Origin: Candidatus Cloacimonadales bacterium
GTDB taxonomy: Bacteria; Cloacimonadota; Cloacimonadia; Cloacimonadales; TCS61
Direction of reading: 5' to 3'
DNA: 47,758 nucleotides
Assembly: GCA_030656075.1 (NCBI GenBank)
Contig: JAUSOT010000263.1
Location: forward strand, 1 to 47,758
Made by a program: the position numbers and the translations under genes. This document shows positions 27,908 through 40,101 of the stretch, piece by piece; position 1 is the first letter of the stretch, and each line of letters starts with the position of its first letter. The notes beneath the pieces were generated by a model that saw only the letters and a program-made list of their open reading frames with translations, had not been told where the DNA came from and searched no databases.

Positions 27908-29100
27908 TGATCAAAGAAAAATATGATGTTTTAGTTATCGGAGCGGGTCCGGCTGGAAGTGTAACAGCCAGATTTGCCGCCGAAAACGGCGCTTCAGTAC
28001 TTATGCTGGAACGTGATCGTGAGGCAGGAATTCCTGTGCGTTGCGCCGAAGGAGTTTCTCATAACGGGATCGTTCCCTTCATAGAATTGGACGAAAAATG
28101 GATTGCTGCGAAGATAAATATTGCCAAACTGCATTCTCCCAACGGTGAAACTGCTGTGATGCGCAACAATGGTGCGGGTTATGTGTTGGAACGCCGGATC
28201 TTCGATACAGCTCTTTGCGACCTGGCTGCCGAAAAAGGTGCGGAATTCATCACTAAAGCCGATGCTTTAGATTTAGTCTGGGAAGATGGCAAAATTGCCG
28301 GTGTAAAATTCAAATACATGGGTGAAATAAAAACCGTGAAATGCGATATCGTGATCGGTGCTGACGGCGTGGAATCTCGCGTGGGAAGATGGGCCGGCAT
28401 TAAAACAGCAGTTCGTTTGGAAGATATCGATACCTGCGTGCAATACACGCTTTCCGGACTTGAAATTGACGACGAAGCCTGTGATTTTTATTTCGGACAG
28501 AATATTTCTCCCGGCGGTTACGTCTGGATTTTCCCGAAATCCAAAACCACAGCCAATGTGGGCATCGGCATTGCCGGACATCTGGCGAAAGATAAAAGTC
28601 CCAAGGAATACCTGGATAAATTTGTGGAAGAGCATTTTCCCAACGCGAAAATAAATTATACAGTTTACGGAGGCGTTCCCACAGCAGCAACATTAAAAGA
28701 GATCGTGAAAGATAACATCATGCTGGTGGGCGATGCAGCGCGACAAGTGAATCCCATTACCGGCGGCGGCATTGTGCAGGCCATGATCGCAGCCCGGATT
28801 GCCGGGAAATTAGTTGCCGAAGCTGTAAAAGCCAAACGTTTCGATGCAAAATTCCTGAAAAAATACCCCCAGGAATGGGATAAAATATTAGGACATTCCC
28901 AAAAAACCATGTTCGACATGAAAGAAAAATTTATGACCCTGACCGATGACAAATTCAACAGTATCGTGGAATTCTGTCAGAAAGTTCCCGAAGACCAATT
29001 CAGTCTGAAAGCGCTCTTCATGGAAGCCGTGAAAGGCGATCCGATGCTGATGCTGGATGTGGCAAAATCGTTTGTCGTCAGCAAAATGAAATTAAAATGA
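27907..29100 (+). CDS. Geranylgeranyl reductase-family FAD oxidoreductase
   Basis: The longer frame starts inside the ferredoxin gene. GAGGGGGA at 27896-27903 points to ATG 27907, giving 397 residues. The Rossmann motif GAGPAGSVTARFAAENGASV is near residue 12; then RDREAGIPVRCAEGVS, IGADGVESRVGRWAGI and MLVGDAARQVNPITGGGIVQA follow, diagnostic for geranylgeranyl reductases (plant ChlP, archaeal GGR). These saturate isoprenoid double bonds using ferredoxin or NADPH. The coupled ferredoxin and a polyprenol-kinase-like gene support isoprenoid lipid or quinone modification. Confidence 0.92.
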   Translation: MIKEKYDVLVIGAGPAGSVTARFAAENGASVLMLERDREAGIPVRCAEGVSHNGIVPFIELDEKWIAAKINIAKLHSPNGETAVMRNNGAGYVLERRIFDTALCDLAAEKGAEFITKADALDLVWEDGKIAGVKFKYMGEIKTVKCDIVIGADGVESRVGRWAGIKTAVRLEDIDTCVQYTLSGLEIDDEACDFYFGQNISPGGYVWIFPKSKTTANVGIGIAGHLAKDKSPKEYLDKFVEEHFPNAKINYTVYGGVPTAATLKEIVKDNIMLVGDAARQVNPITGGGIVQAMIAARIAGKLVAEAVKAKRFDAKFLKKYPQEWDKILGHSQKTMFDMKEKFMTLTDDKFNSIVEFCQKVPEDQFSLKALFMEAVKGDPMLMLDVAKSFVVSKMKLK

Positions 29101-29699
29101 TCCAAAAACATAAAGGCGAAGTTTTTAGGAAAGCGATTCACTTCAGCCTGATATTGCTGCCTCTCGCCTATCGTTACCTGGTGAACTACGACAAAAAGAT
29201 CACACTTTTTGTTTTAATATCCCTTCTATTCATCGCTTTGCTGGTGGAAATCCTCAGGATGAAACATCCGACCTTCAAACGTATCTTTTTTGATGTTTTC
29301 GGGTTGATGCTGCGCAGCCGTGAATATCACGATTTCACCAGCGCCACCTACATGCTGATATCTGTGGTTATCTGCATTGCTGTGTTGCCGCCCGAAATTG
29401 CCTTTATTGCGATTTCTTTCCTGGCGATCGGTGATACTTTAGCAGCTCTGGTGGGGGTTCAGTTCGGAAAGCGAAAATTATTTGGAACAATTAAAAGTTT
29501 GGAAGGCAGCCTGGCTTGTTTTGCAGGGACGTTTATTTTTGCCTTGTTTTATTTGAATCCGATCATAGCTTTTGCCGGAGCGCTCGCTGCAACGTTGGCA
29601 GAAGCTGCTCCCATCTGGTTGGATGATAATATCAAAGTGCCGATCACATCGGGAATCGTGATGATGTTGGTGAGTTATGTGGTTATCTCAGGTATCTAA
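29097..29699 (+). CDS. Integral-membrane polyprenol/phytol kinase-like protein (SEC59/DGK1/VTE5 family)
   Basis: A 200-residue protein with 5-7 membrane helices (FSLILLPLAYRYL, LFVLISLLFIALLVEI, YMLISVVICIAVL, FIAISFLAIGDTLAALVG). The conserved cytoplasmic face motif FRKAIHF, then AIGDTLAALVGVQFGKRKLFG, then KSLEGSLACFAGTF is characteristic of CTP-dependent dolichol, phytol and diacylglycerol kinases. The start overlaps the reductase stop (ATGA). It probably phosphorylates an isoprenoid alcohol; the exact substrate is inferred from context only. Confidence 0.85.
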   Translation: MIQKHKGEVFRKAIHFSLILLPLAYRYLVNYDKKITLFVLISLLFIALLVEILRMKHPTFKRIFFDVFGLMLRSREYHDFTSATYMLISVVICIAVLPPEIAFIAISFLAIGDTLAALVGVQFGKRKLFGTIKSLEGSLACFAGTFIFALFYLNPIIAFAGALAATLAEAAPIWLDDNIKVPITSGIVMMLVSYVVISGI

Positions 29700-29704
29700 A
29701 AACA

Positions 29705-29804
29705 GCCGCGGATTTTCGCAAATAGACGCGGATGAGGTAGCGTAATGTTAAGAAAAGAAAAAAGTAAACATTTTAATCTGTGTTTTTTCGCGTTAATCAG
29801 CGGC
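29705..29804. repeat. Solo inverted-repeat pair of the GxxExxY element family
   Basis: 29705-29733 is a 29-base copy of the element end (GCCGCGGATTTTCGCAAATA...). 29789-29804 is an inverted partial copy ending CAGCGGC. Between them are about 55 AT-rich bases and no gene, so it resembles a deleted, MITE-like derivative beside the full element. Confidence 0.65.
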
Positions 29805-29846: not shown

Positions 29847-30305
29847 GCCGCGGATCTGCACAAATAGACGCGGATAAGGTTCTATAATGTTAAAACATGC
29901 AAACTTATCCAACGAAGTAATCCAATGTTTTTATGAAGTTTATAATGAACTTGGTAGAGGATATTTAGAATTAGTATATCAGAATGCAATGCTGGTTAGA
30001 TTTATAGAAAAATTCATTCCTGCAGAGAAAGAAAAGAATATTGATGTGTATTTCCATGAACAAATAGTCGGAAAATTTAGAGCAGATATAATTGTTGATG
30101 ATAAAATAATTATCGAAATAAAAGCTGTGAAAGCAATCATAAAAGAACACGAAGCTCAATTGCTTAATTACTTGCGCGCTACTAAAATCGAAGTTGGTCT
30201 AATTTTGAATTTTGGCGATGAACCAACTTTTTCCAGGAAAGTGTATGATAATGACAGAAAGAAATAAACTTAAAATATCAGCGTTTATCCGTGCAAATCA
30301 GCGGC
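29847..30305 (+). mobile_element. Putative GxxExxY mobile element, copy 1, with 29-bp terminal inverted repeats
   Basis: The left end 29847-29875 and right end 30277-30305 are 29-base inverted repeats identical at about 23 positions (GCCGCnGATnTGCACnnATA...). They enclose one gene with 11 bases on each side or less. A second enclosed gene of the same family with equivalent ends is at 39517-39974. Mobility is inferred. Confidence 0.6.
29887..30267 (+). CDS. GxxExxY-family protein (PD-(D/E)XK nuclease fold)
   Basis: A 126-residue protein with the family signature GRGYLELVYQ (G-x-x-E-x-x-Y). The PD-(D/E)XK-like core reads FRADIIVDDKIIIEIKAVKA (D then E-x-K), then HEAQLLNYLRATKIEVGLIL. The family is widely scattered and often multi-copy in genomes; activity is unproven. 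It is enclosed by terminal inverted repeats and about 80% identical by eye to the copy at 39554-39934. Confidence 0.9.
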   Translation: MLKHANLSNEVIQCFYEVYNELGRGYLELVYQNAMLVRFIEKFIPAEKEKNIDVYFHEQIVGKFRADIIVDDKIIIEIKAVKAIIKEHEAQLLNYLRATKIEVGLILNFGDEPTFSRKVYDNDRKK

Positions 30306-30338: not shown

Positions 30339-31271
30339 ATGAAATTATCATTTGTAATACCGGTTTATAACGAAGAACAAAGTTTAAAACAACTTAATTC
30401 AGAAATTACAGAAAATGTTAAAGATCATGAATACGAAATCATCTTTGTCGATGATGGTTCAACCGATCGCAGTTTCGCTGAAATGCAAAAGCTGACAGAG
30501 CAAGATAAGAACGTAAAGATTATCCGCTTCCGCAGGAATTTCGGTAAAGCAGCCGGGTTGCAAGTTGGTTTCGACCATTCTGACGGTGATGTCATATTCA
30601 CGATGGATGCCGATCTGCAGGACGATCCCAAAGAGATTCCGGCCTTCCTGCAAAAGATTGAGGAAGGCTACGACCTGGTGACGGGCTGGAAGAAAAAACG
30701 ACGCGACCCGATCAGTAAAACCGGGCCTTCCTGGCTGGCAAATTCCGTCATGTCCCGTGCCTTCAAACTGAAACTGCACGACTACAACTGCGGCTTCAAA
30801 GCTTATCGCAAAGAAGTGATCGAAGAAATCGATGTGTATGGCGAAATGCATCGTTACATTCCTGCCCTGGCTCATGCCAAAGGCTTCAAAGTAGCTGAAA
30901 TTCCGGTGCATCACCGCAAAAGAAAACACGGTGTTTCCAAGTATGGCGTGGAGCGTTTTTTCCGCAGTTTCCTCGATCTGCTCACCGTCAGATTGGTGAC
31001 CGGTTATCTGCACAGTCCGCTTTATCTTTTTGGCCGCATCGGTGCCGGATTCACATTCCTCGGTTTTCTCATCGCCCTTTATCTGACGATCATGAAACTG
31101 GGCTTCGGTCAGCCTCTCTACAACAGGCCTCTGCTCTATCTGGCCACACTGCTCATCATCATTGGATTGCAGTTCTTTTCGATCGGGCTTCTGGGTGAAC
31201 TCATCGTGAATCAGGGACGCAAAATAAACAAAGAAAATCAAATCTCAATCAAGGAAAAAATAAATCTTTAG
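30339..31271 (+). CDS. GT2 glycosyltransferase with C-terminal membrane helices (DPM1/GtrB-like)
   Basis: A 310-residue protein with AGAGG before the ATG. The GT-A core has SFVIPVYNEEQSLKQL, IIFVDDGSTD, FRRNFGKAAGLQVGF, FTMDADLQDDPKEIP (D-x-D) and DYNCGFKAYRKEV. Two membrane helices at about 233-255 and 263-288 identify the polyprenyl-phosphate sugar transferase (DPM/GtrB) class, which loads glucose, mannose or related sugars on a lipid carrier. It is followed 14 bases later by a UDP-sugar pyrophosphorylase that could supply its donor. Confidence 0.92.
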   Translation: MKLSFVIPVYNEEQSLKQLNSEITENVKDHEYEIIFVDDGSTDRSFAEMQKLTEQDKNVKIIRFRRNFGKAAGLQVGFDHSDGDVIFTMDADLQDDPKEIPAFLQKIEEGYDLVTGWKKKRRDPISKTGPSWLANSVMSRAFKLKLHDYNCGFKAYRKEVIEEIDVYGEMHRYIPALAHAKGFKVAEIPVHHRKRKHGVSKYGVERFFRSFLDLLTVRLVTGYLHSPLYLFGRIGAGFTFLGFLIALYLTIMKLGFGQPLYNRPLLYLATLLIIIGLQFFSIGLLGELIVNQGRKINKENQISIKEKINL

Positions 31272-31285
31272 GAAGGTAGTTTATC

Positions 31286-32644
31286 ATGCAAAATCATCTT
31301 TCAAAATTTGTTGAGTTAATGCAGAATGCCGGACTTAACGATCTGACGATCCAGGCTTTCTCAACCTATTATTATCAGGTATTGGAAGGCACTTCCGGTA
31401 AACTTTGCGAAAAGGAAATCGATCAGCCGGATTATGATAAAATTGTGCAGTACGAACACCTGCATAAATATCCTTTTTCACCCTTGGAAAAACTCGTCGT
31501 GATCAAACTGAACGGCGGTTTGGGAACCAGCATGGGATTGAAAAAAGCCAAAACCCTGCTGAAAGTGAAAGGCGAACTGAATTTTCTGGATATCATTGCC
31601 CGGCAGATCTTGGAATTGCGCGAAGAAAGCGAAAAAAACATTCCGCTGCTATTCATGCACAGTTTCAATACCAGGGAAGATTCATTGGCTCATTTGAAGA
31701 TTTATCAATATCTGGCTCTTCCCCATTTGCCGTTGGATTTTTTGCAAAACAAATTTCCTAAAATCAAGCAGGAAGACCTTTCCCCGCTGCAAAACGAAGA
31801 CGGTAGTCAGAATTGGAATCCACCCGGACACGGTGAAATTTACAGCGTTCTGGCCAGTTCGGGAGTGTTGGACAAACTGCTGGAACTTGGTTATGAGTAT
31901 GCCTTCATTTCCAATTCGGATAACCTGGGCGCAGTGATCGATGAGAAAATTTTAAACTATTTTGCCGAACATAAAACTCCTTTCATGATGGAAGTCTGCC
32001 AGCGCACGGAAGTGGATAAAAAAGGCGGCCATCTGGCGCAGAACAAACACGGACAACTCATTTTGCGGGAATCAGCTCAATGTCCCGATGATGAAGTCGA
32101 TTATTTCCAGGATATCGAGCGTTATTGCTATTTCAATACGAACAATCTGTGGGTAAATTTGAAAGCCTTGAAACATAAACTCTTTGAAACGAACAACCTG
32201 CTACCGCTGCAATTAATTTTGAACAGCAAGGAAGTGGATGGAACGAAAGTTTATCAGTTGGAAAGCGCCATGGGAGCTGCTATCAGCGTGTTCCGGGAAT
32301 CCAGGGCAATCCTGGTGAACCGCGACCGGTTTGCACCTGTAAAGAAAACCACCGACCTGCTGGCTATCTGGAGCGATGCTTACAAACTTACCGATGATTA
32401 CCGGCTGATTCTGAACGGACGAAATAAACCGCCCAAAATTATCCTAGATGACAGATATTATAAAACAATCGAGCAACTGCAGGATCATTTTGAATACGGT
32501 CTTCCTTCTCTACGCCGCTGCAAAAGTTTGGAAATCAATGCAAATGTATATTTTGAAAAAGGTGTTGAGATCATTGGAGATGTGAAAATTTCCAAAGATT
32601 GCGATCTGGAATACTGCAAATTGCAGAACGAGGAAGTGAAGTAG
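31286..32644 (+). CDS. UTP-sugar-1-phosphate uridylyltransferase, eukaryotic-type UDPGP family
   Basis: A 452-residue protein with AGGAAGG before the ATG. The UDPGP (PF01704) signature is LVVIKLNGGLGTSMGLKKAK (77-96), with later motifs PPGHGEIYSVL, FISNSDNLGAVID, MMEVCQRTEVDKKGG and FNTNNLWVN. A C-terminal left-handed beta-helix-like end (CDLEYCKLQN) fits. This is the family of eukaryotic UGPases, not bacterial GalU. It makes UDP-glucose or a related UDP-sugar, and is likely co-transcribed with the GT2. Confidence 0.92.
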   Translation: MQNHLSKFVELMQNAGLNDLTIQAFSTYYYQVLEGTSGKLCEKEIDQPDYDKIVQYEHLHKYPFSPLEKLVVIKLNGGLGTSMGLKKAKTLLKVKGELNFLDIIARQILELREESEKNIPLLFMHSFNTREDSLAHLKIYQYLALPHLPLDFLQNKFPKIKQEDLSPLQNEDGSQNWNPPGHGEIYSVLASSGVLDKLLELGYEYAFISNSDNLGAVIDEKILNYFAEHKTPFMMEVCQRTEVDKKGGHLAQNKHGQLILRESAQCPDDEVDYFQDIERYCYFNTNNLWVNLKALKHKLFETNNLLPLQLILNSKEVDGTKVYQLESAMGAAISVFRESRAILVNRDRFAPVKKTTDLLAIWSDAYKLTDDYRLILNGRNKPPKIILDDRYYKTIEQLQDHFEYGLPSLRRCKSLEINANVYFEKGVEIIGDVKISKDCDLEYCKLQNEEVK

Positions 32645-32992
32645 AAGCAGGATTGGCAGGATTTTGTTAGATTTTCAGGATTTAGTCTGGCTCCCAAACT
32701 CCTCTTTGGATACCCAATAATCATGCGAAACCCTGTTTCAAAAGATATTAAACCAAAGTGGGCTTTGACGCAATTATGCGTTCCCAATCAGGGGATTGGG
32801 ACCGAGAGAAAAAAAGGATTGGGAACGAGAGATTCTTTCATCAACTGGTTCGTCAACTGGTTCCCAAACCCCTGTTTGGGAACCCAAGAATGAATTGAAA
32901 CGGCATATCTAAGATAAGATTGCCACTACTGGTGGGGCTGTTTGGGAACCCAAGAATGAATTGAAACCCCGTTTTAAAAAAAGGAGTCAATG
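32645..32992. repeat. REP-like palindrome cluster upstream of the RAYT gene
   Basis: CCAAAG-TGGG-CTTTG (near 32752-32767), then GTTCCCAATC-AGGG-GATTGGGAC (32780-32803), a half unit GATTGGGAACGAGAG (near 32818), and GGTTCCCAAAC-CCCT-GTTTGGGAACC (32859-32884, perfect 11-bp stem). These are one family of GTTCCCAAWC palindromes with a following GAACGAGA tail. No gene here. The palindromes continue on the other side of the RAYT. Confidence 0.9.
32872..32967. repeat. CRISPR-like pair: two identical 30-base repeats with a 36-base spacer
   Basis: 32872-32901 and 32938-32967 are identical (start CTGTTTGGGAACCC, end GAATGAATTGAAAC), separated by a unique 36-base stretch. The ATTGAAAC end and dimensions mimic a CRISPR repeat. 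A third, degenerate copy (5 mismatches) is at 33701-33730 beyond the RAYT. There are no cas genes, and the repeat contains the REP stem, so I label it a repeat. Confidence 0.75.
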
Positions 32993-33562
32993 ATGCGATC
33001 CAGATACAAATTTATTGATTCTGAAAAAGCACCGTATTTCCTAACGTTTTCAGTTATTGAAAGAATACCTGTTTTCACAAATTCTAAATATTGCGATGTT
33101 ATTATCGAAAACTTTGAATTCTATCGTAAAGAACGGGGTTTACAGATATTCAATTACGTGATCATGGATAATCATGTTCATGCCATCATGTTTCACGAAA
33201 ATGAGATAGGTAAAGTTGTTCAGGATTTCAAAAAATATACTGCAAAACAGATTCTGGAATTGTTGGAAAATGATTCCAGAAGTTGGATTAAATATCTGAT
33301 GAAATTCTTCAAGAAACCGCATAAAACAAAATCGACATATCAATTCTGGCAGGAAGGAAGCCATCCTGAATTAATTCAAAATCAGGAAATGTATAATCAA
33401 AAGGTCGATTATATTCATAATAATCCGGTGAAACGAGGATTGGTTTTGGAAAGTAAAGATTGGTATTATTCCAGTGCCAGAAATTTGTATGGATTGGATA
33501 ATCCATTTGAAGTTGATGTGATCGATGATAATTGGGGAATGGAAGAGTTTGATGAACAGTAA
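32993..33562 (+). CDS. REP-associated tyrosine transposase (RAYT, Y1/IS200-like)
   Basis: ATG 32993 sits 6 bases after AAGGAG; 189 residues. HUH-type single-strand transposase: NYVIMDNHVHAIM (H61-V-H63) and a catalytic Tyr140 in KVDYIHNNPVKRGLV, with WQEGSHPE typical of RAYTs. RAYTs are single-copy domesticated relatives of IS200/IS605 transposases that act on REP palindromes. This one is flanked on both sides by matching GTTCCCAA palindromes, the expected arrangement. The reading frame is intact. Confidence 0.93.
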   Translation: MRSRYKFIDSEKAPYFLTFSVIERIPVFTNSKYCDVIIENFEFYRKERGLQIFNYVIMDNHVHAIMFHENEIGKVVQDFKKYTAKQILELLENDSRSWIKYLMKFFKKPHKTKSTYQFWQEGSHPELIQNQEMYNQKVDYIHNNPVKRGLVLESKDWYYSSARNLYGLDNPFEVDVIDDNWGMEEFDEQ

Positions 33563-33761: not shown

Positions 33762-34517
33762 ATGACCATCAAAACCGAATTTAATAAAAACTTCCGAAAG
33801 TGGTTTGTGAATGATGTGCTGTATGCCATCAAAATCTACAAGATGTTCGAGCCGAATGAAAAAATTTGTGTAGCTCTTTCCGGCGGCAAAGACAGCATCG
33901 CTTTGCTTTACATTTTGTGGTTCATCAATCAATATTCCTGGCTCAAATTCCAGCTTTCTGCCTTGCACGTGAAAACAGCAGAATATGATACTTCGATACT
34001 TCAAGAATTCTGCGAAGAACTGAAAGTTCCTTACTACGAAACGCAACTTTTTCTCACTGAAAAATCGCTTTCCAAATATGCCTGCTACATCTGTTCCCGC
34101 CTCAAACGCGGAGCTATGAGCCGTTTTCTGCAGGATAAGAAAATCCAAAAAGTAGCTTACGGTCATCATGCCGACGATGCAGCCGAAACCTTCTTTATGA
34201 ACATGATCAAACACAAACGGCTGGGCAGCTTCTCACCCAAAGTGGATTTCGAAAAATATTACATCAACATCATCCGTCCCATGATCTATCTGGAAGAAGA
34301 AACTATCATAAAATTACATAAAAAGGTCGGATTACCAGTCTTGGATTATCAATGTCCGCATGAAGATAAAAATATTCGTAGTGATTTCAAGGAAAGTTTA
34401 CAGCAGATGAATAAGATTTTTCACACCCGGCATTTCAGCCGCGCGGTAGTGAAATCTCTGGAAAATATAGATTGGAAAAACATTTGGGAAGATTTGAAGC
34501 AGGATGAACAGGATTGA
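33762..34517 (+). CDS. TtcA-like PP-loop tRNA thiolation protein
   Basis: A 251-residue protein. PP-loop ATP pyrophosphatase motif SGGKDS at 40-45; an iron-sulfur/thiolation pair C108-x-x-C111 (YACYICSRLKRGAM); YGHHADDAAETFFMN; and a later Cys in YQCPHEDKN. This arrangement defines the TtcA group that makes 2-thiocytidine or related thiolated bases in tRNA. No strong Shine-Dalgarno; the start follows the repeat cluster by 31 bases. The exact base modified is uncertain. Confidence 0.88.
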   Translation: MTIKTEFNKNFRKWFVNDVLYAIKIYKMFEPNEKICVALSGGKDSIALLYILWFINQYSWLKFQLSALHVKTAEYDTSILQEFCEELKVPYYETQLFLTEKSLSKYACYICSRLKRGAMSRFLQDKKIQKVAYGHHADDAAETFFMNMIKHKRLGSFSPKVDFEKYYINIIRPMIYLEEETIIKLHKKVGLPVLDYQCPHEDKNIRSDFKESLQQMNKIFHTRHFSRAVVKSLENIDWKNIWEDLKQDEQD

Positions 34518-34540
34518 ATCAGGATTTGCAGGATGTACAA

Positions 34541-34569
34541 ATCAGCGTTCATCCGCGTCTATCCGCGGT
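34541..34569. repeat. Solo end of the GxxExxY element family
   Basis: ATCAGCGTTCATCCGCGTCT and the following bases match the right-end 29-mer at 30277-30305 at about 22 of 29 positions. It is a single copy without a partner, 24 bases after the TtcA-like stop. Confidence 0.6.
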
Positions 34570-34622
34570 TTTAAAAAGTCAGTGTCTATTCAGTGAAAGT
34601 CTGTGACTAAAAAAGAGGAATT

Positions 34623-35276
34623 ATGTGGAAGATTGAACCAAACACACCTTTAAAGCTGGGCGTGATCATAATGAAAAATGTTTCGGTAACGGCTGAAAAA
34701 ACAGCCTACAATAAAATTTTGGACTGTGCTGCCGAATACGCCCGAAAATACCAAAATACAAACATCGGTGAAATTCCCGGAGTGATGAACTCACGCTCTT
34801 TGTTCCGTTCCATCGGCATGGATCCGACCAAGCATCGTCCTTCTTCCGAAGCTTTGTTGCGAAGAGCTTTGAAAGGTTTGGAATACTTTTCCATCAATAC
34901 ATTGGTTGATATCGGCAACTGGTGTTCGCTGGATTTTCTGCTGCCCATCTGCGTTTATGATGCCGACAAAACCGCAGGCGAAATTACAGCACGTTTGGGA
35001 AAAGAAAATGAAAGCTATTTCGGGCACAATAACCGGGAAGTGAACCTGCACAATCGTTATTTAATAGCCGATGAAAAAGGACCATTTGGTTCTCCGATCA
35101 CGGATTCCATTCGTACAGCAGTTGATATAAACACAAGAAATGCCATCCTGATCATTTTTACTCCACAGGATTTTGCTGATGAACTTCTCCAAAAACAAAT
35201 GGAAATCTTTGCCGAACGAGTGCAGGAAATCTGTGGTGGAAAAATTGTGGAATCTTTTGTTTTGAAATCAAACTGA
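34623..35276 (+). CDS. B3/B4 tRNA-binding-domain protein (COG3382)
   Basis: A 217-residue protein with AGAGGAATT before the ATG. It has the B3/4 fold pattern known from PheT and stand-alone COG3382 proteins: MNSRSLFRSIGMDPTKHRPS, SEALLRRALKG, VDIGNWCSLDFLLPICVYDA, GPFGSPITDSIRTAV. The stand-alone proteins may bind or edit tRNA or amino acids; not proven. The last codons and stop lie inside a 140-bp tandem repeat. Confidence 0.85.
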   Translation: MWKIEPNTPLKLGVIIMKNVSVTAEKTAYNKILDCAAEYARKYQNTNIGEIPGVMNSRSLFRSIGMDPTKHRPSSEALLRRALKGLEYFSINTLVDIGNWCSLDFLLPICVYDADKTAGEITARLGKENESYFGHNNREVNLHNRYLIADEKGPFGSPITDSIRTAVDINTRNAILIIFTPQDFADELLQKQMEIFAERVQEICGGKIVESFVLKSN

Positions 35277-35545
35277 AACCTTGAAAGCGTCTCTTTCAAG
35301 AATTCCGGAGAATTGACACTTTTAAGGTTGGATAGTTTACCAAAGAGAGCTTTGGTTACAAATAGCGTTCTCAATCAGGGGATTTGGAACGAGAAAGCCG
35401 CTTCGAATCAAACTGAAACCTTGAAAGCGTCTCTTTCAAGAATTCCGGAGAATTGACACTTTTAAGGTTGGATGGTTTGCCAAAGAGGGCTTTGGCATTA
35501 TATTGCGTTTCCAAACAGGGGTTTAGGAACGAGAAAAACAACGAT
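35266..35545. repeat. Tandem 140-bp repeat (two copies) with three hairpins per unit
   Basis: Units 35266-35405 and 35406-35545 begin AATCAAACTGAAACCTTGAA and are near-identical for about 120 bases. In each: AACCTTGAAAGCGTC (35277-35291) pairs with GACACTTTTAAGGTT (35315-35329); then CCAAAG-AGAG-CTTTGG (35340-35355); then GTTCTCAATC/GATTTGGAAC (35367-35390), the RAYT-type palindrome. The first unit starts within the last codons of the B3/B4 gene. Confidence 0.9.
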
Positions 35546-39474: not shown

Positions 39475-39516
39475 AATTCCTCAAATATTGGACAGGATAA
39501 CAGGATAAATGCTTTT

Positions 39517-39974
39517 GCCGCTGATGAACACGGATAAACACTGATAAATGAGTTTAATTTTTTCTTTCATTATCATACACTTTCCTAGCAAATGTTGGTT
39601 CATCGCCAAAATTCAAAATTAGACCAACTTCGATTTTAGTTGCTCGCAAGTAGTTTAGTAATTGAGCTTCATGCTCTTCAATGATTGCTTTTACAGCTTT
39701 TATTTCGATGATTATTTTATTATCTACGACAATATCAGCTCTAAATTTTCCTACTATCTGTTCATGGAAAAACACATCAATATTCTTCTCTTTTTCAGCA
39801 GGAATGTATCTTTCACTAAATCTTATCATCAAAGCATTCTGGTAAACTGATTCCAAATATCTTCTTCCGAGTTCATTGTAAACTTCATAAAAGCTTTTAA
39901 TAATCTCATTGGAAAGATTTGCATGCTTTAACATCACATCTCCCTATCCGTGCCTATCAGTGAGAATCCGCGGC
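39517..39974 (-). mobile_element. Putative GxxExxY mobile element, copy 2, with 29-bp terminal inverted repeats
   Basis: 39517-39545 and 39946-39974 are 29-base inverse copies identical at about 22 positions and homologous to the ends of the element at 29847-30305. They enclose one gene on the minus strand. Total length 458 bases against 459 for copy 1, which supports a defined unit. Confidence 0.62.
39554..39934 (-). CDS. GxxExxY-family protein, second copy
   Basis: A 126-residue protein (ATG 39934 preferred over an earlier GTG, as GGGAG is 7 bases upstream). Signature region GRRYLESVYQNAL: the leading Gly of GxxExxY is Arg here. The PD-(D/E)XK core is intact (FRADIVVDNKIIIEIKAVKA). It is highly similar to the gene at 29887-30267, with most differences in the first 70 residues, and nearly identical after KNIDV. 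Confidence 0.9.
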   Translation of the reverse strand: MLKHANLSNEIIKSFYEVYNELGRRYLESVYQNALMIRFSERYIPAEKEKNIDVFFHEQIVGKFRADIVVDNKIIIEIKAVKAIIEEHEAQLLNYLRATKIEVGLILNFGDEPTFARKVYDNERKN

Positions 39975-40101
39975 ATGCGTACACCTCTGATATTTTTTAA
40001 AATTTGGTTCAACCAGGAAGTCTTGAACCAACAAATTAACTTCAAAAATATAAATATTCAAACTCTGTGCCCTCAGTGTCTCCGTGGCACTGTGTTGAGA
40101 A

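Follow-up and report, generated by a model that had tools for sequence, protein, structure and literature searches.

GxxExxY genes in a Candidatus Cloacimonadales bacterium and its relatives lie between inverted arms of tandem heptamers, and comparison of related genomes gives good support for the view that gene and arms move as one unit. Slightly better than even confidence attaches to our preferred reading, in which these units are compact mobile elements whose nuclease reads the repeat units of its own arms while host repair inserts the copies. Such an element would measure ~460-510 bp and consist of inverted arms, each of at least three tandem 7-mers, around a single gene for a Cas4/lambda-exonuclease-like nuclease. 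The elements are laid along the direction of transcription from one gene's stop codon to the next gene's ribosome-binding site. Typically, the left arm starts no more than ~30 nt from the preceding stop codon, and 4-35 nt separate the right arm from the start codon that follows. Two elements were found in the window, the whole 47,758-nt stretch analysed, which is one contig of a 3.2-Mb draft genome (G000).

The two window elements are summarized in Table 1. The best ungapped inverted 29-mer match within 100 bp of each GxxExxY gene was 23/29 for element 1, reached by 0 of 300 shuffles, and 21/29 for element 2, reached by 1 of 300. Across the two copies DNA identity is 83%, and homology extends from 40 bp upstream of the start codon to 54 bp downstream of the stop, ending at the arms. 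The sequence-only reading had described two elements of near-equal length with homologous ends and ~29-base inverted repeats of 22-23 matches. Lengths, homology and the enclosure of both genes were borne out, although the match count was slightly generous for element 2. Between the arms there is only the PD-(D/E)XK ORF, and no transposase is encoded. The pairwise dN of 0.07 and dS of 0.90 indicate strong purifying selection on the GxxExxY protein; dN/dS values for the protein fall at 0.06-0.15, with ~0.1 for one recent pair of near copies.

Table 1. Elements, arms, hairpins and solo repeat arrays in the window
Feature	Position	Strand	Description
Element 1	29847-30305		459 bp; encloses CDS 29887-30267(+)
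Left arm, element 1	29847..29875	+	three units GC-CGCGGAT-ctg-CACAAAT-aga-CGCGGAT
GxxExxY gene, element 1	29887..30267	+	126 aa; predicted Cas4/lambda-exo-like PD-(D/E)XK (D67, E77xK79, Q91xxxY95)
Right arm, element 1	30277..30305	-	read on - strand: GC-CGCTGAT-ttg-CACGGAT-aaa-CGCTGAT
Element 2	39517-39974		458 bp; encloses CDS 39554-39937(-)
Right arm, element 2 (element reads on - strand)	39517..39545	+	GC-CGCTGAT-gaa-CACGGAT-aaa-CACTGAT
GxxExxY gene, element 2	39554..39937	-	127 aa; start GTG, or ATG one codon on
Left arm, element 2	39946..39974	-	GC-CGCGGAT-tct-CACTGAT-agg-CACGGAT
Gene-less hairpin (MITE-like), left and right GAT arms	29705..29804	+	internal-deletion derivative of adjoining element 1
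CAGGAT unit pair	32648..32661	+	just past stop codon of 31286-32644
Solo array of CAGGAT units	34500..34533	+	another GxxExxY-arm flavour; overlaps upstream gene's stop codon
Solo right arm, GAT flavour	34541..34567	-	
Solo right arm, GAC/GAA-like flavour	34578..34605	-	directly behind GAT arm, ahead of next gene
CAGGAT unit pair	39493..39506	+	adjoins right end of element 2
Solo arm, GAG flavour	40063..40086	-	just behind MerR-like gene; GAG relic at same place in G001

The arms are more than plain inverted repeats, as each is a head-to-tail run of 7-mers. Three tandem units of consensus CRCNRAN, spaced by 1-3 nt, point inwards from each end, and the outer arm edge reads approximately TTnRC ahead of the first unit (38 intact arms). 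Positions 5 and 7 of the unit define a flavour (GAT, GAG, AAG, AAT, GAA or GAC), and CAGGAT and ATTGATG-type units occur beside the CRCNRAN flavours. Both arms of one element share a flavour, which varies between elements and subfamilies. A strict scan recovered 95 arrays in 376 kb versus 0.0 in shuffled sequence, and all 28 nearest convergent arm pairs were of one flavour. Under a looser rule, convergent pairs agreed in flavour in 37 of 41 cases, versus 0.19 by chance. Inter-arm distances fall into two groups, mostly ≤200 nt when gene-less or 386-600 nt when a gene is present. In G000 itself the strict scan found 16 arrays, several of them solo, in the 283 kb sampled, and genome-wide counts rest on such samples. 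A possible depletion of one base in the arms was also considered, and no difference from background was seen. In the Bacteroidota genomes G062 and G063 (L241, L231), GxxExxY genes have other ends, of GTCTGAACC-[AG]-GGATTT and GGATT-type units, which the CRCNRAN rule misses. A text search of open-access literature for the unit sequences returned unrelated matches only.

Arms and GxxExxY protein co-vary across at least five bacterial phyla. On a tree of 102 proteins, 31 of them unlabelled under automatic flavour assignment, 18 flavour changes are needed versus 46.2 after shuffling, and none of 200 shuffles was as low; the tree has 132 columns and many unresolved forks, and the claim is limited to clustering. 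A tree of 82 proteins gave 16 changes versus 36.3 after shuffling. For 36 of 71 proteins, the nearest labelled relative in another phylum carries the same flavour (mean 10.8 and maximum 20 in 500 shuffles). This tracking of the protein tree argues that arms and gene form one hereditary unit, and it is the main reason for thinking that the GxxExxY protein reads the arms.

Both window proteins match TIGR04256 (127 bits versus a cut-off of 35), and the first also matches PF13366 (PDDEXK_3; 128 bits versus a cut-off of 22). A structure model of GxxExxY (pLDDT 91) finds its best Foldseek matches in SSO0001 (Cas4), LHK-Exo and lambda exonuclease, with Hjc resolvases weaker. The motifs are intact: D67, E77, K79 and Q91 are invariant and Y95 is invariant or nearly so. 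From the predicted fold, the D, ExK and QxxxY residues, GxxExxY models as a minimal RecB/Cas4/lambda-exonuclease-like PD-(D/E)XK nuclease. It also gives weak matches to Cas4 profiles, but differs from the nucleases of the Cas4/lambda-exonuclease type in being shorter (126 aa), stand-alone and linked to arms. In two longer frames, L045:2406-3333 (309 aa) and L039:490-1468 (326 aa), the GxxExxY domain is preceded by ~190-210 residues of different sequence, which gives the appearance of an element fused to the tail of the gene upstream. In the open-access literature searched, a passage on RT/CRISPR annotation mentions a GxxExxY-domain gene annotated beside an RT, and that passage makes no link to mobility.

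PF13366 is present in 41 of 59 relative genomes, at up to 16 copies per genome. Most gene copies have arms, a point on which the sequence-only reading had staked its case: 90 of 109 GxxExxY copies from 6 phyla show arm evidence (tandem units, inverted-repeat score or special unit types), and the other 19 have no arm by the criteria used. Tandem units alone are seen at 73 of the 109 copies versus 23 of 160 control ORFs, and most of these 23 have units in orientations unexpected for element arms. Scored as inverted repeats over 160-170 bp, the flanks of 82 GxxExxY copies outscore the flanks of 388 ordinary ORFs (p=1.5e-20). Among the controls, the highest scores belong mostly to genes adjoining hairpins or to redundant element copies, which makes the test conservative. 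Eight genomes from Chloroflexota, Bacteroidota, Latescibacterota, KSB1 and Alphaproteobacteria have the same unit types, and 18 of their 27 copies exceed the control 95th percentile. Two GxxExxY loci lie on viral contigs; phage records gave neither GxxExxY nor four-helix-bundle matches. These figures come from single-protein scans of genome contigs and crude longest-ORF gene calls in draft genomes, one per species, and near copies inherited together inflate some counts.

Filled and empty orthologous sites, which the sequence-only reading had proposed to look for, exist among the related genomes. The gap between 29097-29699 and 30339-31271, which holds element 1, is short and element-free in G002, G014, G012 and G006; in G022, G010 and G030 it contains gene-less hairpins of AAG flavour, or what is left of them. 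The MerR-like and sigma-factor genes are separated by just a few dozen bp in G014, G030, G010, G024 and G011. This gap is occupied by a GAT element in G000, by a CAGGAT-flavour element in G012 and, in G001, by tandem copies in decay together with another, different GxxExxY. In the pair G022/G010, whose flanks are 91-94% identical, an element after L053:10710 in G022 has no counterpart in G010. The earlier proposal that gene and ends travel together thus stands, with flavour co-inherited with the protein, empty sites in existence and most copies armed. Its description of a PD-(D/E)XK selfish element that lacks a classical transposase agrees with mobility as a unit and with the missing transposase gene; a role of the nuclease in movement would be inferred, and the description needs widening to arms that are gene-less or surround an unrelated gene.

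It is very improbable that these are ordinary, immobile operon genes with regulatory repeats, for example for translation control as with the Beggiatoaceae TAACTGA repeats. GxxExxY genes are indeed codirectional with their neighbours, the last unit near the start codon could act as a ribosome-binding site, and a regulatory role has been proposed for heptamer repeats (MacGregor 2015, PMC4679880). The filled and empty sites nonetheless contradict immobility, and multiple copies, subfamilies that differ from slot to slot, gene-less hairpins and decayed tandem copies also speak against it.

No target-site duplication or base-resolution donor/recipient pair was found in the flanks compared, where arms and older relics blur the junctions. 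A 450-bp insert in G022 (L053) has two direct copies of the left arm at its bounds, where G010 has one solo arm. Considered as a target duplication, this arrangement fits either insertion next to an arm or deletion between arms, and is not a clean duplication. Upstream of a purD-like gene, one slot is taken by GAG elements in G022 and G009 and by AAG elements in G012 and G023; the first base of the element, counted from the preceding stop codon, is the same in G022 and G012. Such reuse of slots by different subfamilies, seen also at the MerR/sigma gap, would suit a homing-type element whose nuclease cuts empty gaps or resident arms and is spread by gene conversion into existing slots, with little transposition to new sites; the commonness of solo arms points the same way. 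We regard homing of this kind as unlikely, however, as the elements occupy many unrelated sites per genome, and where one subfamily occurs at different sites homology ends at the arms and the flanks are unrelated.

Arms also occur as gene-less hairpins of ~100-160 bp, and of 25 short convergent pairs, inverted doublets able to form hairpins, 23 agree in flavour. The window hairpin just upstream of element 1 is 82% identical over its left 68 nt to the left end of that element and retains the ATGTTAA start and the stop-side AAGTAAAC/AAATAAAC region of the reading frame. The sequence-only reading had listed this hairpin and positions 34541-34569 as solo copies; the latter is a true solo right arm, but the former is complete, with both arms. 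Elsewhere in the window, a direct repeat of 131 nt (35266-35536; two copies, 140 nt apart) includes the 3′ terminus of 34623-35276 together with a CCAAAGAGGGCTTTGG palindrome.

The hairpins invite comparison with REPINs and the RAYT transposases. Like REPIN/RAYT systems, the GxxExxY elements have inverted hairpin doublets, many gene-less intergenic copies and a link between arm type and protein lineage (PMC3116915). They differ in having a Cas4-like nuclease rather than an HUH Y1 transposase, tandem 7-mers without the GTAG palindrome, and the gene inside the arms. It has been weighed, and judged improbable, that arms and hairpins are REPIN-like and are moved by a co-resident RAYT (Y1, TnpA-REP), with the GxxExxY and four-helix-bundle genes as enclosed cargo. 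RAYTs are abundant in these genomes, one of them at 32990-33562 in the window, and Y1_Tnp counts correlate with GxxExxY counts (Spearman 0.66, 59 genomes). The gene-less doublets look like REPINs (PMC3116915), and RAYT genes share the elements' codirectional bias, at 15:1. Yet G039, G041, G050 and G056, which are 99-100% complete, have GxxExxY genes and no Y1_Tnp, which rejects a RAYT acting in trans as the sole mover. Arm flavour tracks the GxxExxY protein, GTAG/CTAC falls in or within 6 nt of only 7 of 88 arms, and the repeats beside the window RAYT are palindromes of another kind. That gene (NF047646) has direct and inverted repeats of the type CCAAACCCCTGTTTGGGAACC / CAATCAGGGGATTGGGAACGAGAG, with no relation to the 7-mer arms.

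An unrelated gene is enclosed by arms of this design as well. PF05635 genes (23S_rRNA_IVP, four-helix bundle) were present in 12 of 12 genomes tested and multicopy in 11. Many of them lie between inverted arms of tandem 7-9-nt units, with inverted-repeat scores above controls (p=1.3e-9), and the units are each copy's own: GGTTGAGAG, GAGAGGTCA, TTAGCnnG, GGAGAAAY and others. On cyanobacterial plasmids, PF05635 genes have inverted STRR-like heptamers (GGGTGTA, GGGAGTA or GGGAACA); the basis of this link is the cyanobacterial STRR heptamers reportedly described by Mazel et al. in 1990. Two four-helix-bundle elements, L192:1989-2345 and L190:2001-2360, sit inside CRISPR operons of cyanobacterial plasmids (cas10/cmr3 and cas6/cas4, respectively). 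STRRs, the stems of trnL P6b (in Nostoc composed of a 7-nt motif from either of two classes; PMC4476775) and the TAACTGA repeats resemble the arms in being tandem degenerate 7-mers in intergenic DNA, but were described without a linked gene, whereas GxxExxY arms end gene-bearing elements.

A close published parallel is the intervening sequence (IVS) of 23S rRNA. The Coxiella IVS is 428 nt long and has a terminal stem of 28 bp, and its small S23p ORF is preceded by three tandem heptamers (PMC4990558). The sequence-only interpretation should be toned down on this point, as the architecture itself was already published for these sequences. The likeness extends to size, ~28-bp terminal inverted repeats, tandem heptamers before a small ORF and the absence of a transposase. 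From this plan, shared with both the PF05635 genes and the Coxiella IVS, we read the GxxExxY elements as siblings of the IVS type that carry a nuclease. They differ in lying between protein genes, in encoding a nuclease unrelated to S23p, and in a CRCNRAN unit that tracks the nuclease lineage. An Rfam search of the window found no RNA family, and the window copies lie between protein genes, outside rRNA. The GxxExxY elements thus lack two defining features of an IVS, the rRNA location and the S23p/four-helix-bundle ORF.

Kinship with the IVS raises the possibility that the elements are intervening sequences at the RNA level, carried in transcripts as an arm-folded stem cut by RNase III and spread via RNA or cDNA. 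In favour of this are the identical plan of the Coxiella IVS, the arms shared with four-helix-bundle genes and an orientation in the transcribed direction of 97:1. The bias is not diagnostic, however, because RAYT genes are also codirectional, and the difference between the two ratios is not significant. The RT domain PF00078 was not found in the element-rich draft genomes G010, G012, G022 and G024, on which ground RT-driven mobility was rejected. Mismatches in GxxExxY arms, read on the sense strand, show no excess of G.U over A.C (37 versus 48), a result that speaks against strong selection to form an RNA stem; four-helix-bundle elements show a weak excess (25 versus 12, p=0.047), so that selection on a stem tests negative for the former and marginal for the latter. 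Spread through RNA is rated a shade less probable than either homing or movement by RAYTs. Neither an RT nor a RAYT in the same genome is required.

The preferred reading, that of a mobile element served by its own nuclease, can be drawn out as follows. The GxxExxY protein would bind its own unit type on both arms and cut or resect there. Host repair would then copy or insert the element at a related arm, or in a gap behind a stop codon. Gene-less hairpins may be moved in trans by the same protein, as RAYTs are thought to move REPINs, and solo arms would be left by recombination between direct arm copies. We infer the action of the nuclease on its own arms and likewise the chemistry of recognition, cutting and insertion. 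Against such a role, Cas4 and lambda-exonuclease relatives are weakly sequence-specific, and a protein of 126 aa could hardly accommodate a separate domain for DNA binding. The same arms also surround an unrelated gene, so another factor could move them all.

On a wider view, which we offer tentatively and hold as possible rather than probable, these elements may belong to a general class of bacterial transposable elements with neither a classical transposase nor an RT. Inverted arms of tandem units would give this class an address code capable of evolving, and a small linked protein would read it, either a Cas4-like nuclease or a four-helix-bundle protein, and autonomous and gene-less copies would spread through intergenic gaps in many phyla. 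Such a class would bring together the IVSs of 23S rRNA, the STRR heptamers of cyanobacteria and related repeats. With its defined ends and co-varying protein, the element supplies a concrete mobile unit for short repeat arrays known for decades from environmental bacteria but lacking a mechanism, such as STRRs, TAACTGA repeats and IVS ends. The arm code, in which units and proteins are linked by phylogeny, makes the mover of these repeats testable by binding and cleavage assays. It also offers a candidate function for GxxExxY, a family of several phyla, and points to a form of jumping DNA that is very compact and has gone unrecognised.
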